Part shown: positions 4,404-44,163 of the stretch, piece after piece | Numbering within the stretch: position 1 is the stretch's first letter | How the letters are laid out: the number at the start of each line of letters is the position of its first letter | Virus record (IMG/VR): IMGVR_UViG_3300009009_000003 | Span: 26,377 to 90,376 of that record | Length of the DNA stretch: 64,000 nt | Source of the DNA: a virus | Direction: 5' to 3' (one strand) | Program-made: the position numbers and the translations under genes | The notes under the pieces: generated by a model | Told to the model about the DNA's origin: nothing | Database searches by the model: none | What the model saw: the letters and a program-made list of their open reading frames with translations, nothing else

Positions 4404-4657
4404 TCCTTGTTTTTATAGTGGCGTGTGGGATATCCTGTCAGGGTATCCCACAACGCACCTATGTTTACACAATAAAAAGGGATTGTTACGGAAAAGTTGA
4501 AAGAGTTACATCAAAAGGAAGTAAGATTGATATTGAGTTTGATAATGGATCTGAAGTAAAAAGAATAACCACATCATCTCATGATATTCAAATTGCTTCT
4601 ACGATTGTAAGTTTCTTTTCCAATTTAATTTCTAGTATTGTTGGTGTGTTCTCTTAA
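4373..4657 (+). CDS. Small lipoprotein, candidate outer spanin subunit
   Basis: A 94-residue protein with a lipoprotein-type signal: basic start (MVNRLTK), hydrophobic core (IALILVFIVACGI) and Cys residues that could be the lipidation site (SC followed by Gln at about residue 22). The mature part is short and ends with a hydrophobic stretch (STIVSFFSNLISSIVGVF). A small lipoprotein directly after holin and endolysin genes is the usual place of an outer-membrane spanin in phages of Gram-negative hosts, but it lacks the proline-rich body of lambda Rz1, so this is only a suggestion. It ends convergently with the minus-strand gene at 4654, overlapping by 4 bases. Confidence 0.5.
   Translation: MVNRLTKIALILVFIVACGISCQGIPQRTYVYTIKRDCYGKVERVTSKGSKIDIEFDNGSEVKRITTSSHDIQIASTIVSFFSNLISSIVGVFS
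4424..4452 (+). repeat. Hairpin inside the lipoprotein signal-peptide codons
   Basis: TGTGGGATATCC (4424-4435), a 5-base loop, and GGGTATCCCACA (4441-4452) form a 12-bp stem with one G-T pair. It lies in the codons for the signal/lipobox region. It is not followed by a T-run, so it does not look like a terminator. Confidence 0.6.
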
Positions 4658-4971
4658 CCAAATGCCCCTTCATTTTTGTTTCTATCTTTCAACTCAGCAC
4701 GTTTTCCTGGGTTCCAGTTCGAAACTTTTGTCATATATCCGGTAATTCTAGTAATACCCTCTACTTCTAGCCCTTTTTTTATTGCTATAATTAGATCATC
4801 ATTTGTCATTGATTCTAATTTTTCCATTGTAATACAAGTTGCATTGTCCACATTATTATAATACCAGGGAAGATTTGTGTCTCTAAAAAGAAAGCACCTT
4901 TCTTTTTCATTATAAGACCATTCTATGTTTCTGTTTTTTTCTAAAAACAAGTCTAGTTCATCAATGCTCAT
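4654..4971 (-). CDS. Stand-alone NrdD-type glycyl-radical-domain-like protein
   Basis: A 105-residue protein whose C-terminal third, ITRITGYMTKVSNWNPGKRA followed by ELKDR (about 74-98), closely resembles the end of class III (anaerobic) ribonucleotide reductase NrdD, where the Gly of the RxxGY motif carries the radical. The rest of NrdD (about 600-700 residues, with the catalytic Cys residues and the four-Cys zinc site) is absent here and elsewhere in the window. The N-terminus (SIDELDLFLEKNRNIEW) is unlike NrdD. Start ATG has GGAGAT upstream, within the preceding small gene. By analogy with GrcA/YfiD, which replaces the damaged glycyl-radical end of pyruvate formate-lyase, it might complement the host enzyme; that is inference. 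Confidence 0.6.
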   Translation of the reverse strand: MSIDELDLFLEKNRNIEWSYNEKERCFLFRDTNLPWYYNNVDNATCITMEKLESMTNDDLIIAIKKGLEVEGITRITGYMTKVSNWNPGKRAELKDRNKNEGAFG

Positions 4972-5122
4972 TTTTATCTCCTTTCATTTTCTCTTCTTTT
5001 TTTATATATTTTCTATAAGCTTTTCTTGTTTTAATTCCTAGCATGATCATTTCTAATTTTTGTGTTCTTTTTTTCGGATTAAAGGCTTCTTTTTTATTGT
5101 ATTTTGTTTCTATGTAGTCCAT
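4961..5122 (-). CDS. Small basic protein, 53 residues, unknown
   Basis: A short frame with AAAGGA about 7 bases before its ATG at 5122. The product is very rich in Lys and Arg (MDYIETKYNKKEAF at the start, KTRKAYRKYIKKEEK near the end), so it probably binds nucleic acid or an acidic partner. Its end overlaps the start of the glycyl-radical-like gene by 11 bases and holds that gene's ribosome binding site, which suggests coupled translation. It lies just downstream of a terminator hairpin. No family recognised. Confidence 0.55.
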   Translation of the reverse strand: MDYIETKYNKKEAFNPKKRTQKLEMIMLGIKTRKAYRKYIKKEEKMKGDKNEH

Positions 5123-11105: not shown

Positions 11106-11702
11106 TCATACTTCCCACTTGCCTTTCTCGTCTTTCTCGAATGTCTTTTTCATCATAAAGTTTCCTGCCGTATGGTAAATGACTATGCCTTCAGGCTTCA
11201 TAAAACATGGGGCAGCGTAACTACCATGTTCTGCAAGCATGGCCATTACTTGAGACACATTCAAGTCATCCATGTTACACTCAAACAATATAGGCACCAG
11301 ACCAATACACTCCGGCAATACCTGCTGCATCTCTGAAATTCTCGGGTCACCTGTTAGTATCTCTTTTGGTTCGCTGCCATACAGGCACCACCTGGTCACA
11401 TTGAACAGGCTAAATCGCTTTTCGCCCTTTGACAGACCATAACCACGCTGGATTCCGCTGCCCCACCATTCTCCAAAGTGCCTGCCTAGACCTAGCTGCA
11501 TAAGCTCGTCCTTGTGGTCATGCGCCCACCTTGAGAAACCATGGTTATCCTTGTCTGGTGTTATCCATCGTGTCCTGCTGCCAGTAAGAAACTCACCATC
11601 ATCGCCAATGAATATCTGTGCGTTAGTACCGTCGATTTTCTCAGTGACGATAACTTTCCGTGAATAACGTGCTATCTTTTGTAATCCTACAAAATCACTC
11701 AT
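11106..11702 (-). CDS. RNA ligase (nucleotidyltransferase superfamily)
   Basis: A 198-residue protein with the ligase motif order: motif I VTEKIDGTNAQIFI with the AMP-accepting Lys (about residue 22), motif III FGEWWGSGIQRGY (about 76-88), motif IV PEGIVIYH (about 168-175) and motif V MMKKTFE (about 182-188). The KxDGTN core and small size fit the Rnl2-like RNA ligase group more than DNA ligases. It may repair RNA cut by host anticodon nucleases. Its ATG sits directly on the SD-encoding tail of the upstream DUF1566 gene (ATGA overlap). Codons are GC-richer than neighbours at 6-8 kb. Confidence 0.75.
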   Translation of the reverse strand: MSDFVGLQKIARYSRKVIVTEKIDGTNAQIFIGDDGEFLTGSRTRWITPDKDNHGFSRWAHDHKDELMQLGLGRHFGEWWGSGIQRGYGLSKGEKRFSLFNVTRWCLYGSEPKEILTGDPRISEMQQVLPECIGLVPILFECNMDDLNVSQVMAMLAEHGSYAAPCFMKPEGIVIYHTAGNFMMKKTFEKDEKGKWEV

Positions 11703-12118
11703 GTTGCCTCCTTATTAAGTTCTGCTATCAGCCTATTTGCTTCATCCCATGTGCAAGGACCTAAGGTTTTCTTACTCCACACAAGGTATGTCGCAGGATC
11801 AAACACAGCAGATCGATTTGTATAGAATGTTTTTCCATTAGGCATTAGTTTGATATTCATATCATCCGGTGGAGCAAACCCATTCCGCACCGCGCGAACG
11901 TAGTAGTGACCGTCCTTACTGTAGTTGAGGACGCTACCGTCGTCGAAATACACGATCCACGCGCCGTATGGACCGTAGGCAGTAGTATTAGAAGACCAAT
12001 AGGAGGACGACTGTGTGTCAGGAAATAGGTCAGTGTTAATAGCAGGATTGTCTCTACTATAATCCACTAAAGAAATAAGCTCTTGTATTTTTGGCAGTCT
12101 CCAGTCGGTGTACTTCAT
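11699..12118 (-). CDS. Permuted DUF1566 (C-type-lectin-fold) protein, copy 1
   Basis: A 139-residue protein of the DUF1566/Lcl-C-terminal group: MKYTDWRLPKIQEL, INTDLFPDTQ, YWSS, AWIVYF and YVRAVRNG occur in family order. In usual members the segment WxxxTxxxCTWxxA precedes the TDWRLP strand; here that part (YLVWSKKTLGPCTWDEANRL) comes last, so the gene looks circularly permuted. Compared with copy 2 (14008), the framework is nearly identical but the codons between DTQ and RAVR differ mainly at first and second positions, a diversifying pattern. The last residues LIAELNKEA are shared with two other genes and encode AAGGAGG for the next gene. Probably a binding protein; ligand unknown. Confidence 0.7.
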   Translation of the reverse strand: MKYTDWRLPKIQELISLVDYSRDNPAINTDLFPDTQSSSYWSSNTTAYGPYGAWIVYFDDGSVLNYSKDGHYYVRAVRNGFAPPDDMNIKLMPNGKTFYTNRSAVFDPATYLVWSKKTLGPCTWDEANRLIAELNKEAT

Positions 12119-12828: not shown

Positions 12829-13650
12829 TCATTCAGTTTTGGCATACACATATATAACGCCATTAACACATCCAAATAGTGCATAACCTTTTTGCCATAC
12901 TTGCCATGCTGCCTTAGAATATTTAATATGTTTCCTGTTTAGCTTTAAACCATGGCATATACAATTACATGCCACATAATTTGCAGCATCCCAGGCAGCA
13001 TACCTGGCATCATTCCAGGCAGCATCCCAGGCAGCATTCCAGGCATCATACCTGGCAGCATCACAGGCAGCATTACTGGCAGCATTACCGGCAGCATCAC
13101 AGGCAGCATTCCTGGCATCATACCTGGCAGCATTACTGGCAGCATCACAGGCAGCATTCCTGGCAGCATTACTGGCAGCATACCTGGCAGCATTACTGGC
13201 AGCATCACAGGCAGCATTCCTGGCATCATACCTGGCAGCATACCAAGTTTTTCCAGTAAACAGTTTCCATGACTTTAATGGTTTTCCGTCCGGTTTTAAA
13301 AATTGCACATGCTTGATACTATCAACAAAATCAATAGCATCTAACCACCATTTAGGATGTTGTACTGGCTTTAGCAACCGTGCCCCAACAAAAACCGATT
13401 TATCGTCCTGGTGTATAGCACCATCCAGTATTGGCTCCGCCTCATAGCAGATACAATTCCATTTGTACCATTGATAAGGTTTGGTGGTCAGATGGATTCC
13501 ACTACTACACATAACAATGTCATCATCAATCTTGTGCCATTTACCTGGTGTCCACTTTCCTTTTTTATCTTGCTTAGGCAGTGACCAGGTAAGATCACCG
13601 CCGTTGCATGACTTACCATCAACCAGTATTTTGTAATATTTGGTTTTCAT
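12829..13650 (-). CDS. DUF7666-type protein with 22 Ala-rich tetrapeptide repeats
   Basis: A 273-residue protein. The N-terminal domain (about 1-135) has the marks KILVDGKSCNGGDLTWSLP, KWTPGKWHK, CSSGIHLT and CYEAEP, which I recognise from a phage/bacterial family (DUF7666). It is followed by about 22 tandem four-residue repeats of the form [AD]A-x-[NDY] (AARY, DARN, AACD, AASN and so on, about residues 137-225) and a short C-terminal domain (SKAAWQVWQKGYALFGCVNG). Family members often carry such Ala-rich arrays, probably helical, of variable length. The array is a 12-bp minisatellite at DNA level. Function unknown; immunity roles proposed for relatives are unproven. Confidence 0.7.
   Translation of the reverse strand: MKTKYYKILVDGKSCNGGDLTWSLPKQDKKGKWTPGKWHKIDDDIVMCSSGIHLTTKPYQWYKWNCICYEAEPILDGAIHQDDKSVFVGARLLKPVQHPKWWLDAIDFVDSIKHVQFLKPDGKPLKSWKLFTGKTWYAARYDARNAACDAASNAARYAASNAARNAACDAASNAARYDARNAACDAAGNAASNAACDAARYDAWNAAWDAAWNDARYAAWDAANYVACNCICHGLKLNRKHIKYSKAAWQVWQKGYALFGCVNGVIYVYAKTE
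12975..13243 (-). repeat. 12-bp coding minisatellite (tetrapeptide array)
   Basis: About 22 units of 12 bp with the plus-strand core GGCAGCATtaCt/caCa/tcCt or GGCATCATACCT. It lies in the DUF7666-type gene and encodes [AD]A-x-[NDY]. Because the unit is a multiple of three without stops, long empty frames appear on both strands. Confidence 0.85.
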
Positions 13651-13744: not shown

Positions 13745-14011
13745 TTATTCTTTCACCTCACTCAACTTATGCCAAATTATGCAGGCGTAGTGTGCCAGCT
13801 TCAGCATGTCACGTTTCTGCTCCTCGGAACCCCTGGCATTGTTGCCAAACCTGGCACAATATTTTTTTATGTCGTTGATAATCTCAGCAGGCGATAGCTC
13901 GGTGCATCGGTCTTGGCCCTTCTCGCCGTATTGTTTTACGGTGTAATGCTCGATGTGATCATCAACGATGCTGCTAAACCAAGACCATTCGCCTCTGCGT
14001 GTTTCCATCAT
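13745..14011 (-). CDS. Conserved small phage protein, unknown
   Basis: An 88-residue protein with a recognisable core: VKQYGEKGQDR, IINDIKKYCARFGNNARGSE and HYACIIWHKL. I have seen the YGE...YxxRFGxNARGxxEQxxDxxKxAHYA pattern in other phage proteins but know no function. Mostly helical, no Cys cluster. The ATG at 14011 overlaps the upstream stop and uses the AAGGAGG encoded by the LIAELNKEAI tail of the DUF1566 copy 2 gene. Its own end is EVKE. Confidence 0.65.
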   Translation of the reverse strand: MMETRRGEWSWFSSIVDDHIEHYTVKQYGEKGQDRCTELSPAEIINDIKKYCARFGNNARGSEEQKRDMLKLAHYACIIWHKLSEVKE

Positions 14012-14409
14012 ATCGCCTCCTTATTAAGTTCTGCTATCAGTTCATTGGCTTCGTACCATGTGCAAATGCCTAGAGTTTTCTGCATCCATATAAGACCTGT
14101 ACTATTATCAGTGACTGTGCCATCTCCATTATCAGTGAACTTTGGATCAGCATTTAATGACCCACACTGTCCGGACCGCACCGCACGAAAGTAGTTGTAG
14201 TGGTCCTTAAAGTAGTAGTAGACGTTGCCGTAGCTGAAACTCACGACCCATGCGGAGTAGGGAGTGCCGACAAGGGTAGTAGACGACCAATAGCCGTACG
14301 CCTGCGTGTCAGGAAATAGGTCAGTGTTAATAGCAGGATCAAACTTGCTTCTATCTACTATAGAATTTAGTTCATCAACTGTAGGTAACCGCCAGTCGGT
14401 GTATTTCAT
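14008..14409 (-). CDS. Permuted DUF1566 (C-type-lectin-fold) protein, copy 2
   Basis: A 133-residue protein: MKYTDWRLPTVDELNSIV, AINTDLFPDTQ, YWSSTT, AWVVSF, FRAVRSG, then FTDNGDGTVTDNSTGLIWMQ and CTWYEANELIAEL. In ordinary DUF1566 proteins the NGDGTVTDNxTGLxW segment opens the domain and TDWRLP follows, so the order here is permuted by a stop/start placed before KYTDW. Between DTQ and RAVR the codons are mostly NNC/NNT with Tyr, Asn, Ser, Gly, Asp and His, the signature of a hypervariable lectin surface. Ends with LIAELNKEAI, the tail shared with the Mre11-like gene. A diversity-generating system is a possible source, but no reverse transcriptase is in the window. Confidence 0.7.
   Translation of the reverse strand: MKYTDWRLPTVDELNSIVDRSKFDPAINTDLFPDTQAYGYWSSTTLVGTPYSAWVVSFSYGNVYYYFKDHYNYFRAVRSGQCGSLNADPKFTDNGDGTVTDNSTGLIWMQKTLGICTWYEANELIAELNKEAI
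14016..14040 (-). repeat. SD-encoding junction repeat, copy at DUF1566 copy 2
   Basis: A 25-bp sequence that occurs identically at 14016-14040, 14414-14438 and 11707-11731. On the coding strand it encodes LIAELNKEA and contains AATAAGGAGG, the ribosome site of the downstream gene. Confidence 0.85.
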
Positions 14410-15311
14410 ATCGCCTCCTTATTAAGTTCTGCTATCAGCTTGTTTACTAATTCTTTCACACAATTTTCTATATTGTTTGCCACCATAAAATTTTCCAAGT
14501 TGTTTTCAAATTTTAAATTTTCCATTATCTTATCTTCACTAAGACCATTAACAAAGGCTTCCAATTTTCTATTAATCTCCTTTTCTTTTTCTAATAGTGA
14601 CAAATCAAAAACGTTATCTTTTACCGGTATTTCTACTCTTTTAGCATTTAATGTTTGTGTATCATAAACAAAAAAACAAGGTTTATGATCAACTTGTGTT
14701 ATGTCCATTCGCATTAATGACCCAGGATTTATTAACATTCTGCTTCCATTTTGTACTGTAAAAGTTTTGTGGTTATCCCCTGTAACAATAAGATCATAAA
14801 AACTGTTAGCATTTAAAAATTCTACAGCATCCATTGAATTAGGAACTTCTTCTCTAAAACAAATAAGACCATGGTAGATCAAAATATTGAATAAATTTGT
14901 ATCTTCAACTTTAGGTATTGTTTCTCCAAAATTACAAAAGTAAATCTTTTCTTTTGTTTTCTTTTCTTCTTGACAAAAATCGGTTCTACTGGAAATAAAT
15001 ACTTTTGCACTTTCTAAAACTGCTAGTGGTGTATTGTCCATCTTATCATTTGAATGGTATCGCATATCGTGTTGTCCGAAAACACCAATCATAGTGGTTT
15101 TAGAAAGAATTTGAATCATGGTTCTTAAAGTTTCGTATGAAATTTTCTTTGTATGGAAGATATCCCCACAATTAAGAATATCCATATTTTCACGACAAGA
15201 ATATGAAACGATGTAATTAATCTTTCTAATTTGTTCTTTAACATAATCATCAGTCCTTCTTTTTGGTGGTTGGTCTGTAATATGCCAATCACTAGTTATT
15301 ATATACTTCAT
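14406..15311 (-). CDS. Mre11/SbcD-type nuclease (T4 gp47-like)
   Basis: A 301-residue metallophosphoesterase of the Mre11 group. Motifs in order: ITSDWHITD (about 5-13), NCGDIFHTK (about 46-54), VFGQHDMRYH (about 76-85), ILIYHGL (about 142-148) and VTGDNHKTF (about 173-181), covering the two-metal site. The C-terminal helix should dock on the Rad50 coiled coil. It is followed immediately upstream by the Rad50 N-terminal half (1-base gap), and the C-terminal half is 7 kb away. The last 11 residues, KLIAELNKEAI, are identical to the end of the DUF1566 copy 2 protein and appear to have been added by recombination at the gene border. Confidence 0.85.
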   Translation of the reverse strand: MKYIITSDWHITDQPPKRRTDDYVKEQIRKINYIVSYSCRENMDILNCGDIFHTKKISYETLRTMIQILSKTTMIGVFGQHDMRYHSNDKMDNTPLAVLESAKVFISSRTDFCQEEKKTKEKIYFCNFGETIPKVEDTNLFNILIYHGLICFREEVPNSMDAVEFLNANSFYDLIVTGDNHKTFTVQNGSRMLINPGSLMRMDITQVDHKPCFFVYDTQTLNAKRVEIPVKDNVFDLSLLEKEKEINRKLEAFVNGLSEDKIMENLKFENNLENFMVANNIENCVKELVNKLIAELNKEAI

Positions 15312-20950: not shown

Positions 20951-23491
20951 CTATTTCTTTCCATACCATCCTTCGTTTATGTCTGTGATTTCAAATTCAA
21001 TTTCTAAAGGAACTATTATCCAAGGGTTTTTCTTTATCAATTGATCAGTTCCCATGTACTTTATTATTTCTATAATTTCATCTTTTTCGGGTGGGAATAA
21101 GTCAATTACAATGGAATCGTGTATTTGCCCCACTATCTTCGATTTATAATTTCTTTTGGTTATTTTCTTATTCACATGAATTAAAGTCCAAAGAAGACAG
21201 TGAAAAGCAGTTCCTTGTATAGGATAATTTGTTACATCATTATATTTCATGTAGCCTGTAAACTCAAACCCAAAGAATGTTTTTATCCTACCGGTTCTTC
21301 TATACAAAGAATTTATGTTTTCCTTCCACATATCATAAACACAAAAACGTTCCCCCCAAAATATTCTTTCACACTTCTTGCAGTGTTCTAAAAAAAGCTC
21401 TAAAGATGTTATACCTTTAGTTTTCAGATGATCTTTTACAGTAGAACCAGATTTAAACTTTAGATTTAAAACCGCCATCCATATGTTTGTCCCACACTCT
21501 TTCCAATAGCTGCCGTAGAATTGTGGGAAAGTCCAACCATTTTTGCCATAGAACCTTATTTCTTTTGTAATCTCCTCTGGTTTGATCATAAACAAATCAC
21601 AGCAAACGTCCCTATGCATATCAGTGGTTGGATCTTTTATATATTTAATCATATTTGGATCTTTGTGATAACAAACAGAAATACGAACTTCTATTCCAGA
21701 GTAATCTGCTTCCAGTATTTGGTTTCCTGGAGTTGGAATAATTCCGGATCTAACAATTTTCTTTGCTTCTTCTTCTCTAACAGGGATGTTTTGAAAATTT
21801 GGTTTTGAAGAACTTGACCTGTATGATTTTGGATTCACTAAGTCAAAACAAGGGTGTATTTTACCATTACACACTTCTCTTTTAAACTGTGCTAAATAGG
21901 TTCCCTTTGTTTTCTCCAACCTTCTTAATTCCAAAAGCTTGTTTCCTGTTGGAAACTTACTGGCTATCTTTTCTATAGAATTTTTATCTAATGATAAATT
22001 TCCTTTTTCAGTATATCTTTTGCCTGCTCCCACTATTTCATAAAACAGAAATCCCAAATCTTTAGATGCCCCCCAATCAATCTTCTTATGCTTTATTTCA
22101 AAAAATTTCTTTGCTTCCACAGAATCGTTTAGTTCGTTCTTTAAATTTTCTATTCTTATGGAAAGTTCAATATCAGCTTTATTAAAGTACTCTTCATCTA
22201 CACAAATTCCGTTATACTCACAATCAGCAAGTGCAATTTGACCTTCAATAAACAAATCGGTTGCCGATGCCCAATCAGCATCTTGATATTTACTGTGCAA
22301 TTTATAAAGTTCTCTACTGTAGAAAGTATCAAGTGCATTATATCTGAGCAGCTTATCCAATGGTATTTTATCAACTGAATTAAATTCTGCCCCTTCTAAA
22401 AAATCTTCTACTTCTTTATTGTATGGTCGAACACCAAAGTTTAAATAGGTTTGGAATTTCAGATCACAAAACTTTTGTCTGTTGTCAATGCATCTTGCCC
22501 CGATCATGGTGTCCCATTCCCAATCTAATTTCTCAACACCAAGAATACATCTTGCCCAATTATGTTCAAACTTTAGGTTGTGTGCAACCAACCTTTTGGA
22601 CTCCATTATATTCTTTAAATAGAGTTTTATTTCTTTTGTTTCAGCCTCAGAGAAATAGTTTCGATAATTAATTGGAAAAGAATACACATTGCCCTGTAGA
22701 TTTGCTAGGGAAACTGATGCTATGAAGTGTCCTGATCTATAAGGCCGTAGTCCTGAAGTTTCAAAATCAATAAATAAAGGGGAGTTTACATTAAGTATTT
22801 CTTTTAAAGCATTGATTATTTCATTAAATTGATATAATTCAAAAATAACATTATCTGTTTTTGGTTCAGGTTTTATTTTTTCTCTTAGATTTAAAGAAGC
22901 TTCTTTTAGATCATGGATAAAGCAAGATAAAAGATTTTCATCATTTTCGTTTCTCATTATAAATGATGGGTGAAATAATACATTAACAATGGAGTTAGTT
23001 TTCCTATCAGGTATAGTTAATCCTCTAAATCTGGATATGGAAGTATCCTTAAAATCTTCACCAAGAAATGATTCTAAGGAAACATTTCCCAGAAGCCATA
23101 TCTTTTCAGGTTGTAATTTTTCAATTATATTATTTACAAATGGTCGGCAATACTTTATGTGGTCATCCGTGGGGGTTTCACTTTTTCCTGGATAACAATT
23201 TACAGCATTAATTTTCCAAAAATCTCTATCTAAATCCAGTCCAATTGATTTAAGTTTACTTCTTAAAAACTCTCCAGCTCTTCCTATTAGCTGAGTTCCC
23301 AATCTATCTTCATTTTCTCCAGGTGCTTCAGCAATTATCAAACATTTTTTCTCCCCCCTTCCTGTATAGTTCATTTTGGGGGTGATACAGGTGTGGAGTA
23401 ATCCACACCTGTAGCAGTTAGAATTATTATCAGGATCAAAATTTTCCTTGGACCATTCTTCCATTTGTTTTTTGGTAAATAAAGAATTCAC
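20951..23491 (-). CDS. Family-4 uracil-DNA glycosylase fused to a family A DNA polymerase
   Basis: An 846-residue fusion. Residues 1-205 form a UDG of family 4: CYRCGLLHTC cluster Cys, IIAEAPGENEDRLGTQLIGR with the catalytic-pocket motif, INAVNCYPGKSETPT and LFHPSFIMR. Residues about 225-420 are a 3'-5' exonuclease (FIDFETSGLRPY, AHNLKFEHNW, YNALDTFYSRELY). The polymerase follows with motif A LEADYSGIEVRIS (about 600), a motif B region KNGWTFPQFYGSY (about 650) and motif C GQIHDSIVIDL (about 795). The glycosylase could remove uracil at the fork. Coupled by a 1-base gap to the sliding clamp. Confidence 0.85.
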   Translation of the reverse strand: MNSLFTKKQMEEWSKENFDPDNNSNCYRCGLLHTCITPKMNYTGRGEKKCLIIAEAPGENEDRLGTQLIGRAGEFLRSKLKSIGLDLDRDFWKINAVNCYPGKSETPTDDHIKYCRPFVNNIIEKLQPEKIWLLGNVSLESFLGEDFKDTSISRFRGLTIPDRKTNSIVNVLFHPSFIMRNENDENLLSCFIHDLKEASLNLREKIKPEPKTDNVIFELYQFNEIINALKEILNVNSPLFIDFETSGLRPYRSGHFIASVSLANLQGNVYSFPINYRNYFSEAETKEIKLYLKNIMESKRLVAHNLKFEHNWARCILGVEKLDWEWDTMIGARCIDNRQKFCDLKFQTYLNFGVRPYNKEVEDFLEGAEFNSVDKIPLDKLLRYNALDTFYSRELYKLHSKYQDADWASATDLFIEGQIALADCEYNGICVDEEYFNKADIELSIRIENLKNELNDSVEAKKFFEIKHKKIDWGASKDLGFLFYEIVGAGKRYTEKGNLSLDKNSIEKIASKFPTGNKLLELRRLEKTKGTYLAQFKREVCNGKIHPCFDLVNPKSYRSSSSKPNFQNIPVREEEAKKIVRSGIIPTPGNQILEADYSGIEVRISVCYHKDPNMIKYIKDPTTDMHRDVCCDLFMIKPEEITKEIRFYGKNGWTFPQFYGSYWKECGTNIWMAVLNLKFKSGSTVKDHLKTKGITSLELFLEHCKKCERIFWGERFCVYDMWKENINSLYRRTGRIKTFFGFEFTGYMKYNDVTNYPIQGTAFHCLLWTLIHVNKKITKRNYKSKIVGQIHDSIVIDLFPPEKDEIIEIIKYMGTDQLIKKNPWIIVPLEIEFEITDINEGWYGKK

Positions 23492-25437: not shown

Positions 25438-26943
25438 TTAATTAAAATCAGAATCCAAATGCGCCTGACCTATGGTTAGTTGTTGTAAAACTGTTACCGA
25501 GTCCGTTTCCATAAAATCTTTGTGCCTATGTGCCATTACGGAAATCCTCATTATACCAAAATCTTTTTCTTCTCTTGTTTGGTTCAAAGCAAGCATACAG
25601 TCAATGTGTCCTAATTTTCCTTTCCATCTTGCTGTGTGTTTTTGGGTTACTACAATGGCTTCCAGTGAATCTCCTGTAGCTTGGGTTCCTGTTACTACCA
25701 AACAATTTCTTTGTGAAGCAAGTCTAGCCAAAGCCATCCATGTTTCATCCTCCTTTAATACTCCAGTAAGTTCATCTCTTTCGGGTTTAAGAATATCAGC
25801 ATGGTCAACAGCAATTAACTTGGGTACATATCCCTCAGTTTTTTCTAAGATATCCAAATCCCTTTCTAAATCAGAAATGTTTGCTGAAAATCGTGGGTAG
25901 GCTTTCATTCGATAGTACTTACTAAAAAACTGCTCTATTCCGGACATCTTGTTTATAATTGTGCTTTCATTGTATTCTGGGACATTAATTTCATCATACC
26001 ATATATCTGGCTCAAATTCTGAATGGTTAATAGTTCTGCAATAGTCGCATGTTTTGTATCGTATATCTCTGGAATATGTAGGTTTTGTTCCATCTGGATT
26101 AAGAAGAATTCTGTCATTGGTTCTTTCCGGAAGTTTACAAGAACCCGATTGGTTTTTGGCACAATCAAAAACAGGATACAAAACAGATTCCGAGTTCTCA
26201 GATGATGGTACCAACCTCTTATAAAATCTTTCCTTCATCTGCTCAATGGTCATTTCAAGAGAAAAGAATACTACAGGCAGTCTGGAAAACATCCCCATGA
26301 TACAAAACTCTTGAAGGTAAAATGTTTTTCCTCTTTTATAAGGTCCGGTAATACCAACAAGCCATCCTGCTTCAAATGGACCGACAAAGTTCCCCAACAT
26401 CCCAGGTAATTTTAAAAGGGGTTCTGTTTTATGGTCGAAGTGCTTCTGTATTTCTTTGCTTTCAAGCGGATTAATCCAATTTGAAGTGATCTTTGATATT
26501 TTTTTAAAAGCCAAAGCTTCATCTTCAGCCTTTTCCAATTGATCTTCTTCAAGAAGGATTTTTATGTTATTGGCTCTTATTTCTAAATCACGTTTTTTGA
26601 AATAGTTGATTGTTTGGTCTGTTAAATAATTAATATTTATTGATTTTTCTATGTAATTACTTTCATCGAGTTCAATTAGGATTTTTTTAATAGCTTCCTT
26701 TTGATCTTCAGATAAAAGGTGTTCTCTTTCATAGAATAAATCAAAAATATCATCTTTTATACAATCATCATATTCCAGAAAGTGGTCGTAGCACCAACAC
26801 ACCATCCTCTTGACATGGTCATCTCTGAAGTAGATTGGTTTCAATATTGACGTTACATTATTAGTAAACTCCTTTGATAGAATTAGGCCAAATAGTATCC
26901 TTTTCTCTAAGGATGTGTCTACCTTTACCCTTTTTATGCTCAT
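25438..26943 (-). CDS. Replicative DnaB-like helicase
   Basis: A 501-residue protein. The N-terminal helical domain (about 1-165) is followed by a RecA-type motor: Walker A ITGPYKRGKTFYL (about 197-209), FFSLEMTIEQM (about 226-236, as in DnaB), Walker B PKLIAVDHADIL (about 380-391) and GTQATGD, AHRHKDF near the end. An insertion of about 100 residues between the Walker motifs contains four Cys (CAKNQSGSC, CDYC), probably a zinc site, which is unusual for DnaB. It unwinds DNA ahead of the polymerase and should interact with the initiator and primase encoded next to it. Confidence 0.85.
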   Translation of the reverse strand: MSIKRVKVDTSLEKRILFGLILSKEFTNNVTSILKPIYFRDDHVKRMVCWCYDHFLEYDDCIKDDIFDLFYEREHLLSEDQKEAIKKILIELDESNYIEKSININYLTDQTINYFKKRDLEIRANNIKILLEEDQLEKAEDEALAFKKISKITSNWINPLESKEIQKHFDHKTEPLLKLPGMLGNFVGPFEAGWLVGITGPYKRGKTFYLQEFCIMGMFSRLPVVFFSLEMTIEQMKERFYKRLVPSSENSESVLYPVFDCAKNQSGSCKLPERTNDRILLNPDGTKPTYSRDIRYKTCDYCRTINHSEFEPDIWYDEINVPEYNESTIINKMSGIEQFFSKYYRMKAYPRFSANISDLERDLDILEKTEGYVPKLIAVDHADILKPERDELTGVLKEDETWMALARLASQRNCLVVTGTQATGDSLEAIVVTQKHTARWKGKLGHIDCMLALNQTREEKDFGIMRISVMAHRHKDFMETDSVTVLQQLTIGQAHLDSDFN

Positions 26944-40628: not shown

Positions 40629-41264
40629 ATGGAAAACGAATTTGACCACGGAGATGGTGATAATTTTTTTTGTGGGGATTCTTCGGAGGATGGGTTTAGT
40701 GATACAGGGGAAGAGGGGGAGGGTAAATTAAGTGGGTATAGTAATCCTTTGGGGATGCCTTTGGGGTACAAGAAGAGGTTAGGGGACATAAGGGTATGGA
40801 AGGCAGACATAGGGGATGTAAAGGTAATAAGTTGGGATGCAATACCGCCTTGTAGGGGGGAGGTATGCAGTATATGGGGGATATGCAGTAAGAGGGGGAA
40901 GGAGGTAAGCAAGAGGCATTGTGGGGTAGTGCATGAATATTTAGGTAATGTAAACGAGATGATATTCAGGAATTATTACAATCAATTAACGGAGCCTATG
41001 TTATTCAAGATTGGGATGCATTTAATACCTTTATACAAGCAATTATGCAGGTTAAAGATAGAGGAGTTGGCGGTAGAGAATTTAGTTCACATAGTAAGTG
41101 GGAGGTATTTAATACATCCTATAATGAAGGAGATAAGGGAGACGGTAAAGGATATTGAGAAGGTGTGGAGCAGTTTAGGGTTAGAGGTGAGGGAGGGGGA
41201 CAGCAGGAGTGTAGAGGAGTACGAGAATGAAGTAGGGAGGATAGTGCGTGAGGCAGTTAGGTAG
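40629..41264 (+). CDS. Candidate terminase small subunit / packaging accessory protein
   Basis: A 211-residue protein with a very acidic N-terminus (ENEFDHGDGDNFFCGDSSED), a Cys cluster CRGEVCSIWGICSKRG with a further C after 11 residues (about 75-98, possible zinc or Fe-S site), and a helical remainder (LTEPMLFKIGMHLIPLYKQL). First gene after the late promoter and directly upstream of terL (17-base overlap), so a small-terminase role is likely from position; no HTH is obvious. Codon use is peculiar: third positions are nearly always A or G (GGG, AGG, GTA, ATA, TTA). Confidence 0.5.
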   Translation: MENEFDHGDGDNFFCGDSSEDGFSDTGEEGEGKLSGYSNPLGMPLGYKKRLGDIRVWKADIGDVKVISWDAIPPCRGEVCSIWGICSKRGKEVSKRHCGVVHEYLGNVNEMIFRNYYNQLTEPMLFKIGMHLIPLYKQLCRLKIEELAVENLVHIVSGRYLIHPIMKEIRETVKDIEKVWSSLGLEVREGDSRSVEEYENEVGRIVREAVR

Positions 41265-44163
41265 TAATAGTAAGAGGAGTTCGATTGGTTTTTTAGGTAA
41301 GGGTGAGTACACAGGTGGGGCAGAGGGGATGATTCGGTGGTGTAACGAGAATGTATACATACCGATATACCGGCAAGGGGATGTAATACCGACTTGGTGC
41401 AAGATGGGGAATTTACCGAGTGGGGTAGTTACGAAGACGGGGAAGAGTTACGATAGTATTTGGGTAGAGCAGCAGAAGGTATTGAGGGAGGCATTGGTAT
41501 TAGATGAGAGTGGATTTTTCAAGAACAAGCTACTTGTATTTTGTTGGATGAGGGGTGAAGGCAAGTGTCAAGAAAAGGGAAGTAAGGTTTTGATGTTTGA
41601 TGGTAGTATAAAGAAGGTTGAAGACATAGTAATTGGGGATTTACTAATGGGGGATGATAATACTTCTAGGGAGGTATTGTCGTTAGTTAGTGGCAGAGAG
41701 GAGATGTTTGAAGTAGTTCCTTACAGAGGGGAATCTATGGTTGTTACAGCAGACCACAAGCTTTCCTTAAAGAGAAGAAGGCGAGGTTTGCACAAGAGAG
41801 GCAAACCGATTAATGATACTGAAGCTGGAAAAATTACTGATATAACGGTTAGGGATTTTCAGAAACAGAATAAATCTTTTAAGAATTTTAATTTATTGTA
41901 TAGAGTTCCGGTTAATTGGCCTGAACAGAAAGTGCCAATTGACCCCTACTTTTTGGGTTTGTGGTTAGGAGACGGTCACTCTCATGTTCCTTCAATAACT
42001 ACGATGGATAAGGAGATAGTTGATTATTTGTATTCTTTTGCAAGTAAAATGAATATGCAAATTACTGTTAAATGGAAAGGTAAAGGTAATAAAGCCAAAG
42101 AATATGCTCTTGTTACTGATAAAGGTAAAGGAAATCCGCTACTTAGCCTTTTAAGAGAAAACAATTTACTTCATAACAAACACATTCCAAAAGAATATAA
42201 AGCAAATTCAAGAGAAGTGAGATTGCAGGTTTTAGCAGGACTTGTAGATACTGACGGTTATAGAAACAGAAATTCCATTCAATTTACACTTAAAGACAAA
42301 CTGTTGTGTGATGATATTTTATTTTTGGCTAGGTCTTTAGGATTTCATGCAAATATTAAGAAATGTACAAAAGGGATAAAGAGTACAGGGTTTTCAGGGG
42401 AATATTATAGAATTGGTATTTCAGGGGATTGTTCCATTATCCCTTCTCTTATTCCGAGAAAGAAATGCCTTCCAAGAAGTAAGTGGAAGGATGTTCTTGT
42501 TACTACCATTAAAGAGATAAAGTCTGTAGGAGAACGGGAATACTTCGGCTTTATGTTAGATGGAAATGGCCGTTATGTTACAGGAGACTTTACAGTTACT
42601 CATAATTCTCTTCTAGCAGTACTTGTTCAGTTATGGAAGTTTTTTTGTTTTCCTCGTCAGCAGATAATGTTGGGGGCAAATTCGAAGGAGCAGACGAAGT
42701 TTGTACATTATGATATTATGAGGGATATTATATTAAACAGTCCTGAATTGCTATCGGCTTTAGGTGGGAAGAAGAACGTACAGGAGAAGGAGATCAGATT
42801 ACGGGATGACAGGGGGCGGATCACGTCAGTAATAAGGGCAATATCCTCTTTTTCCGGAATAAGGTCGAATATTACAGGGTACACATTCTCAGAAATCTTT
42901 GATATGAAAAATCCAAGGTTTTTCGTACAGTTAGATGGTTCATTGCGTAATATTCCTAATGCTTTGGGGGTAATTGATTCTACTGTATCGGACAAGCAGC
43001 ATGTATTGTACTCGTTATTTGTTGATAGTATCATAGAGAAGAAGACGAAGACGGTTTTTTTCAGTTATCGGTGTAGTAAGAACGCAGATCCTGGGGATTA
43101 TTGGAATCCTCACATGGATGGTGATCAGTTATCCGACTACAAGATCAAATTTCCGATGGGGGAATTTGAGAAGTATTTTCAAAACCTTTGGAGTGCAGGG
43201 ATTACGAGGGTATTTTCTGAGGAAGTGATTAGGGAGAAGGGGATAATGGGAATAAAGGGGGAAATATTGAACCATGAAAAGATTGCTGATGCTATAAGGT
43301 ATGAATCAAGATTAACAGACATAATATCTGGGATGGAAGAGAAAGAGCATGAATATGGTCTAAACCAAGCTAGGCCGAAGCTTGTAAATTTGAGGGATAG
43401 TTTAGTTCCGGTAAGCAATTTCTATAAGTTACAGAAATGGACACAGCATGATGGCACTAGGATGTGTTCTATGGCGGAGCTGAATATGTTGGGTGATTTG
43501 CTGGATACAGACTTTTGTATTTTAGCAGGAACGGACTTTGGTGATCCTGTTGCTGTTCGAACCTATGCACGAAGCATGGGGGTGGTTGTGGCTAAATGCT
43601 TACCAAGGTCTAGGAAAAACTTCTTTGTTTCCGATACCGCTCCTAACTATTTGTATTTACTTCTTTGTGTTGTTCATGCTGAGAAGAATAATTTGGGGGC
43701 GATTAAGGAAGCATTAGAGGAATGTAACAAGGAGTATGATGGGATTGATACCTTATGTTCGGAGAGGTTTGGTTCTTGGGATCTTTCCGAATGGTGTGAA
43801 GAGAGGGCAATAGAGTTTGATCCGATATTCCCTACTTATGATCGTCAGAGGGAAGGATTTAATAATTTATACAATATTTTTAAGTTTGGTTTGTTTAAAT
43901 CCCCTCCTACAGATTTACCTGGTAACAAGCGTTCAGATATATTAGATGAGGAATTAGAGGTGTTTGACCACGATTCCTCTAAGAGATGGTTTGGTTCCCC
44001 AGAGAAGTATGAGAAAAATGGGGCGCAGGATGATACAGTGTATGCTTTGAACTGGTGTATTTTTGGTGGAAGGAAGAAAAGCGTGAATGATTTTCGTATT
44101 AGAAGAAGTTCCGTTAGTTTTGGGGAAATTGTGGGGAATTCTAGCTTATTGGGGAGATATTAG
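41248..44163 (+). CDS. terL: Terminase large subunit interrupted by an intein
   Basis: A 971-residue precursor; removal of a 347-residue intein would leave about 624 residues. GTG start, with GGGAGG seven bases upstream. The ATPase Walker A, WMRGEGK then SLLAVLVQ, is split by the intein between Lys and Ser. The remaining extein shows MLGANSKEQTKF, SFSGIRSNITGYTFSEIFD (Walker B region, about 555) and the RNase H-like nuclease with CILAGTDFGDPVAV (about 755, first metal Asp) and CSERFGSWDLSEW (about 832). It packages DNA into proheads. Extein codons are G-rich, as in the gene before; the intein's are not. Confidence 0.85.
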   Translation: MRQLGSNSKRSSIGFLGKGEYTGGAEGMIRWCNENVYIPIYRQGDVIPTWCKMGNLPSGVVTKTGKSYDSIWVEQQKVLREALVLDESGFFKNKLLVFCWMRGEGKCQEKGSKVLMFDGSIKKVEDIVIGDLLMGDDNTSREVLSLVSGREEMFEVVPYRGESMVVTADHKLSLKRRRRGLHKRGKPINDTEAGKITDITVRDFQKQNKSFKNFNLLYRVPVNWPEQKVPIDPYFLGLWLGDGHSHVPSITTMDKEIVDYLYSFASKMNMQITVKWKGKGNKAKEYALVTDKGKGNPLLSLLRENNLLHNKHIPKEYKANSREVRLQVLAGLVDTDGYRNRNSIQFTLKDKLLCDDILFLARSLGFHANIKKCTKGIKSTGFSGEYYRIGISGDCSIIPSLIPRKKCLPRSKWKDVLVTTIKEIKSVGEREYFGFMLDGNGRYVTGDFTVTHNSLLAVLVQLWKFFCFPRQQIMLGANSKEQTKFVHYDIMRDIILNSPELLSALGGKKNVQEKEIRLRDDRGRITSVIRAISSFSGIRSNITGYTFSEIFDMKNPRFFVQLDGSLRNIPNALGVIDSTVSDKQHVLYSLFVDSIIEKKTKTVFFSYRCSKNADPGDYWNPHMDGDQLSDYKIKFPMGEFEKYFQNLWSAGITRVFSEEVIREKGIMGIKGEILNHEKIADAIRYESRLTDIISGMEEKEHEYGLNQARPKLVNLRDSLVPVSNFYKLQKWTQHDGTRMCSMAELNMLGDLLDTDFCILAGTDFGDPVAVRTYARSMGVVVAKCLPRSRKNFFVSDTAPNYLYLLLCVVHAEKNNLGAIKEALEECNKEYDGIDTLCSERFGSWDLSEWCEERAIEFDPIFPTYDRQREGFNNLYNIFKFGLFKSPPTDLPGNKRSDILDEELEVFDHDSSKRWFGSPEKYEKNGAQDDTVYALNWCIFGGRKKSVNDFRIRRSSVSFGEIVGNSSLLGRY
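41566..42606 (+). mobile_element. Intein with LAGLIDADG homing endonuclease in terL
   Basis: Residues 107-453 of the TerL precursor. It begins with Cys1 (CQEKGSKVLMFDGSIKKVED, block A), has block B MVVTADHKLSL, two LAGLIDADG helices FLGLWLGDGHS and LAGLVDTDGYR, and ends with block F/G YFGFMLDG and FTVTHN followed by Ser+1. All residues needed for splicing (Cys1, TxxH, His-Asn, Ser+1) are present, so it is probably active. Insertion is inside the P-loop GxGK-S. Confidence 0.9.

Follow-up and report, generated by a model that had tools for sequence, protein, structure and literature searches.

Oxygen cleaves glycyl-radical enzymes at the glycine that carries the radical. For pyruvate formate-lyase (PFL), the lost end can be replaced by a small protein, YfiD in Escherichia coli or Y06I in phage T4 (PMC8683613). 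These two parts for PFL are the only validated ones, and parts for other glycyl-radical enzymes are regarded as hypothetical but possible (Andorfer et al., PMC8683613). Here we describe a 64,000-nucleotide stretch of viral DNA (positions 26,377 to 90,376 of the IMG/VR record IMGVR_UViG_3300009009_000003; the whole stretch is called the window below), in which an open reading frame (ORF) at 4654..4971 on the minus strand encodes a 105-residue protein ending in the glycyl-radical segment of NrdD, the class III ribonucleotide reductase. We propose, with a probability of roughly 0.7, that this gene encodes a trans-acting, GrcA-like spare radical part for the NrdD of the host, which phages would have borrowed; the proposal is drawn from sequence comparisons.

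The first-pass annotation had assigned the C-terminal end of the protein to the NrdD radical loop, and profile searches bear the assignment out. Residues 69-98 (4678..4767, minus strand), which hold the loop ITRITGYMTKVSNWNPGKRAELKDR quoted in that annotation, match positions 532-560 of the 562 in Pfam NRDD (PF13597) with 31.8 bits (E = 8e-8; gathering score 26.2) and positions 550-580 of the 581 in NCBIfam TIGR02487 (E = 4e-8), that is, the last ~30 positions of both profiles. A Pfam profile search gave no match of the 105-residue protein to the PFL-type Gly_radical family up to E = 10, and weak matches to relaxase and methyltransferase profiles were judged to be due to chance. The predicted glycyl-radical residue, Gly78 (codon at 4738..4740, minus strand), follows from the loop alignment and from the invariance of the glycine, which is kept in all 25 aligned members of the subfamily to which the protein belongs. 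A degenerate DNA pattern for R-[IV]-x-G-Y-x3-V-x2-W-N-x-[GA]-K-x2-E was scanned against IMG/VR and 84,980 species genomes. With Gly at the loop position there are 121 viral matches among the matches listed, and the same pattern with any other codon at this position has none in IMG/VR.

Upstream of the loop, residues 1-66 (4774..4971, minus strand) form a family-specific domain that replaces the zinc ribbon of NrdD and is predicted, from conservation and AlphaFold2, to fold as alpha-beta-beta-alpha-beta-alpha. AlphaFold2 was run on alignments of two and of six rows; it modelled this domain fairly confidently, with a predicted local distance difference test (pLDDT) score of about 80, but not the loop. 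Foldseek against the PDB found nothing significant for the predicted structure, and a Pfam search found no homologous family for the domain. Since a domain with no known homologue could dock elsewhere, the protein might be the radical subunit of a glycyl-radical enzyme other than NrdD. We consider this very improbable, because the loop sequence is that of an NrdD and NrdDs with this type of loop occur alongside the gene. In the alignment, the domain is common to phages, Margulisbacteria and genomes from the phylum of a Desulfobacterales metagenome-assembled genome (MAG).

The full record comprises 90,376 bp, and its first and last 123 bases are identical. Because of these identical ends, the phage genome is very probably complete, with a length of about 90.25 kb, and circular or terminally redundant. 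It had been claimed that the catalytic barrel and its Cys are missing from the gene and from the window, and a check of the rest of the genome for nrdD and nrdG had been proposed. An NRDD search finds the ten-stranded barrel with its thiyl-radical cysteine neither in the 105-residue gene nor in the complete phage genome; in all 90,376 bp of the record there is no second NRDD match and no NrdG-like Fer4_12 protein. Two outcomes had been named beforehand as refuting the idea, a lack of NrdD profile matches and a full nrdD elsewhere in the genome; both fail, because the NRDD match is significant and the complete genome holds neither nrdD nor nrdG. An nrdD split by an intron or intein in this phage is ruled out as well, the barrel being nowhere in the complete genome.

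The 105-residue ORF is genuine and lies on the minus strand: it starts with ATG, 6 bases before which stands the AGGAG of a good ribosome-binding site, GAAAGGAGA (4977..4985, minus strand), and a plus-strand reading of 4654-4971 is excluded by stops that interrupt the frame. This site speaks against the gene being a relic of an nrdD that the phage has lost and of which a decayed 3′ end would remain, a view that could draw on the limitation of the NrdD match to the last 30 residues and on the frequent breakage of phage nrdD genes by introns and inteins (PMC3653736, PMC12363816). A relic is also hard to reconcile with a distinct N-terminal domain conserved in phages and two bacterial phyla, or with the ratios of nonsynonymous to synonymous substitution rates (dN/dS) of 0.07, 0.12, 0.16 and 0.11 among close cellular pairs (range 0.07-0.16), which indicate that the gene is under purifying selection in cells. 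We therefore regard a relic as extremely improbable.

The stand-alone nature of the radical segment, as first described, is confirmed, but the segment is not a lone oddity: it is one of a large class. Scans with the single protein and with a first alignment gave one relative; the class became visible through the degenerate loop pattern and a subsequent alignment that included both phage and cellular members. The following counts are among the matches listed, viral and cellular, and are not dereplicated. The 121 viral loop matches comprise 87 short closed ORFs (mostly 40-140 residues), 10 short ORFs cut by the edge of the locus and 24 long NrdD frames; among the 120 cellular matches, 96 are long, 18 are short and closed, and 6 are cut. 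Of the 57 viral records that carry a detached loop and span 19-146 kb, 54 lack the NrdD barrel; because such records may be fragments, this absence carries less weight than that from the window's phage. An NrdG-like protein occurs in all three barrel-bearing records of this set versus 3 of the 54 barrel-less ones. The N-termini of the viral detached-loop proteins vary, being missing altogether or consisting of zinc ribbons, coiled segments or a domain of the window's type. Two detached-loop copies per viral record were also seen (L036 in G014; L039 and L068 in G015).

Among 50,697 deposited phage records, the sole detached loop that turned up is that of ANMV-1 (KP703175; gene at L009:2668-3102), and the other relatives read out are full NrdDs. 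This scarcity may explain why the class has been overlooked. Neither NCBIfam nor PHROGs contains a family dedicated to the short proteins: in NCBIfam their matches fall on the end of full-length NrdD models, and most of those tested against PHROGs had no match.

Proteins alike over the full length to that of the window (P0001) are found on about 16 viral contigs, in 19 of the 74 genomes of the Margulisbacteria phylum, and in 6 of the 297 genomes, with 7 copies, of the phylum of the Desulfobacterales MAG. P0001 is 57% identical over its whole length to a phage relative (L003), 56% and 54% identical to chromosomal copies from the latter phylum, and 31-53% identical to the remaining relatives compared. 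In the tree, a chromosomal copy from this phylum (L305) clusters with P0001 and L003 (support 92/62). This grouping suggests, and does not show, that the host of the phage belongs to Desulfobacterota. One genome (G278) has a chromosomal copy and another copy in a phage-like region.

Carriage of the gene goes together with an intact NrdD in cells. A full-length NrdD of the same loop type is present in 17 of the 19 Margulisbacteria carriers versus 9 of the 55 non-carriers (P = 1.7e-8, Fisher's exact test, not corrected for phylogeny), and all six carriers in the phylum of the Desulfobacterales MAG have an NrdD loop match of their own. In viruses, the barrel is absent from 10 further records of the window's subtype, and three phages that encode a full NrdD of the same loop type have no detached loop.

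The surroundings of the Margulisbacterial genes point to oxidative stress. In one Margulisbacteria MAG (G021), the gene has an Rrf2 regulator on one side and a PerR-like regulator of the Fur family on the other. The cluster around it also encodes TlpA-like and CcdA-like proteins, several rubrerythrins, desulfoferrodoxin and a pyridine-nucleotide-disulphide oxidoreductase; for those of the proteins that were tested, the assignments were confirmed with Pfam. Two full-length nrdD genes stand in tandem in this genome, and their loops (EGITRITGYFSRISGWNKGKIAELRDR) are of the same type as that of the small protein. An Rrf2 gene is nearby in 16 of the 19 Margulisbacteria loci and directly adjacent in 11, and genes for oxygen detoxification (desulfoferrodoxin, rubrerythrin, thioredoxin-reductase-like) are near in about half of the 19, many of the contigs being short. 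Both an intact NrdD in the carriers and stress genes nearby are expected of a spare part for NrdD of the GrcA type. The analogy to GrcA, a guess in the first-pass annotation, is thus supported independently by cellular orthologs in stress clusters, by genomes with an intact NrdD of the same loop type and by the natural split NrdDs described below.

The Rrf2 neighbors are themselves regulators, and the phage gene sits at the downstream end of a long leftward block with DNA replication genes. It is therefore conceivable that the protein is a regulator or decoy which, by binding to NrdG of the host or to the NrdD dimer, blocks or modulates its target, for example to stop host DNA synthesis or to sense oxygen; a loop mimic could compete for NrdG. 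However, the radical glycine is never replaced, although a blocker could do without it; in cells, the gene is maintained by purifying selection close to detoxification genes; and most phages profit from more deoxyribonucleoside triphosphates (dNTPs), not fewer. We hold such a role to be improbable.

A detached loop is also found as a part of NrdD itself in cells. In 10 cellular genomes, from Margulisbacteria, candidate phyla, archaea and other groups, the gene for NrdD spans NRDD positions 1 to ~530, and an adjacent small ORF encodes the loop (~530 to 562) on its own. Several of these pairs are followed by a gene that reads as an NrdG-type activase, judged by eye from the sequence and not by profile. 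In the Spirochaete split NrdDs (L163, L171, L191, L211, L233), the loop ORF appears, on a similar reading, to be extended by a thioredoxin-like domain. For one of the 10 genomes (G026) a single frame length is tabulated for both pieces, yet the ORFs read as two, and in another (G027) the barrel pieces are on two short contigs. A limited literature search found no paper on such a two-gene split. Because natural two-gene NrdDs exist, a barrel can evidently work with a loop that is supplied in trans on a separate chain. A related arrangement was seen in a Moranbacteria MAG (L166), where a full-length nrdD is directly followed by an extra ORF with a zinc ribbon and a radical loop.

The split NrdDs raise the alternative that the viral protein is not for repair after oxygen only, but is a general radical tail that always works in trans for the host NrdD, or replaces the loop subunit in hosts with a split NrdD. 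Many of the viral stand-alone loops (CEVYSRVVGY type) indeed resemble the loop subunits of split NrdDs. By contrast, the cellular NrdDs that accompany the window's subtype are full-length enzymes that carry a loop themselves, so that a second loop would have no obvious place as long as the first is undamaged, and the Margulisbacterial gene stands near oxidative-stress genes. A constitutive subunit thus seems unlikely for the window's protein, although less so than the other alternatives.

The spare part that we favor would work as follows. The C-terminal 35 residues would be a copy of the NrdD radical loop, and the protein would probably be anchored to the NrdD barrel by its N-terminal domain, which would take the position of the zinc ribbon. 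After oxygen cleavage of the host NrdD at the glycyl radical, the protein would bind the damaged enzyme and the host NrdG would install the radical on Gly78. Synthesis of dNTPs could then resume with no need for a new 80-kDa enzyme, in the way that PFL is restored by GrcA/YfiD and T4 Y06I. Margulisbacteria and some Desulfobacterota would use the protein under stress, and phages would use it to secure dNTPs during infection. The docking, the radical transfer by NrdG, the rescue after oxygen and the host group are all inferred by us. Several observations weigh against this proposal. Two of the 19 Margulisbacteria carriers show no NrdD, possibly owing to incomplete genomes, and the chromosomal copies in the phylum of the Desulfobacterales MAG have no obvious oxidative-stress cluster around them. 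The four-Cys zinc site of the NrdD radical domain is absent, with two Cys in P0001 and none in the L003 relative (P0002), and AlphaFold2 models the radical loop poorly (pLDDT mostly <60).

Elsewhere in the window, a 53-residue ORF (4961..5122, minus strand) lies upstream of the radical-protein gene and its end overlaps the gene start by 11 bases; because of this overlap the two are likely on the same transcript. A DNA polymerase I-type protein (20951-23491, minus strand) has an N-terminal domain of the uracil-DNA-glycosylase superfamily fused to exonuclease and polymerase, and an intein with a homing endonuclease of the LAGLIDADG type (Hom_end_hint, Hom_end) is found within a likely terminase large subunit (41248-44163, plus strand). 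The C-terminal tag LIAELNKEA[IT], near-identical among the three, is shared by two Lcl_C-like proteins and a phosphoesterase unrelated to them (11699-12118, 14008-14409 and 14406-15311, minus strand). A further protein (12829-13650, minus strand) has a long repeat tract rich in A, N, C, D and R (NAACDAASNAARYD...).

No paper on spare parts for NrdD was found among open PMC papers. Spare parts as a principle are not new; what appears to be new is the target enzyme, the family of proteins and its breadth among viruses. Taken together, we think it reasonably likely that class III ribonucleotide reductase has a spare-part family of its own, apart from GrcA, that anaerobic bacteria deploy it in oxygen-stress regulons, and that many viruses of anaerobes carry only the tail, so that much of what is annotated as viral nrdD would be a tail commandeering the host enzyme. 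The essential NrdD would thereby gain a concrete and widespread candidate spare-part family, with cellular cases near stress genes and many viral ones, and the open question of spare parts beyond PFL becomes testable with a 105-residue protein. Viral nrdD calls that rest on the NRDD family can be tail-only, and ANMV-1 is one example.

Like the window's protein, the members of the GrcA family (E. coli YfiD, phage T4 Y06I) are small and stand alone, occur in cells and phages, carry an N-terminal part before the copied radical loop, and serve a target enzyme encoded elsewhere. They differ in having a PFL-type loop of the Gly_radical family, whereas the window's protein has an NrdD-type loop and no Gly_radical match; the N-terminus of YfiD is disordered, whereas that of the window's protein is predicted to be folded. 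With the C-terminal radical domain of NrdD (PF13597, TIGR02487) the protein shares the R-[IV]-T-G-Y ... WN.GK..EL.DR loop and its radical glycine, but it lacks the barrel, the thiyl cysteine and the four-Cys zinc site and has a new N-terminal domain. The natural split NrdDs likewise keep the radical loop on a separate small ORF, but there a loop-less barrel adjoins, often with an NrdG-like gene, and the window's phage has neither; the cellular relatives of the window's protein differ from them in that their NrdD is full length. A viral counterpart from the deposited records, the 144-residue “anaerobic ribonucleoside triphosphate reductase” of ANMV-1, listed in its paper as an oxygen-sensitive ribonucleotide reductase (PMC4372165), also consists of the radical loop only and comes from a virus of anaerobes. 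Because this gene is a tail only, the published inference of a virus-encoded reductase should be revisited. Its N-terminus is zinc-ribbon-like, unlike the domain of the window's protein.
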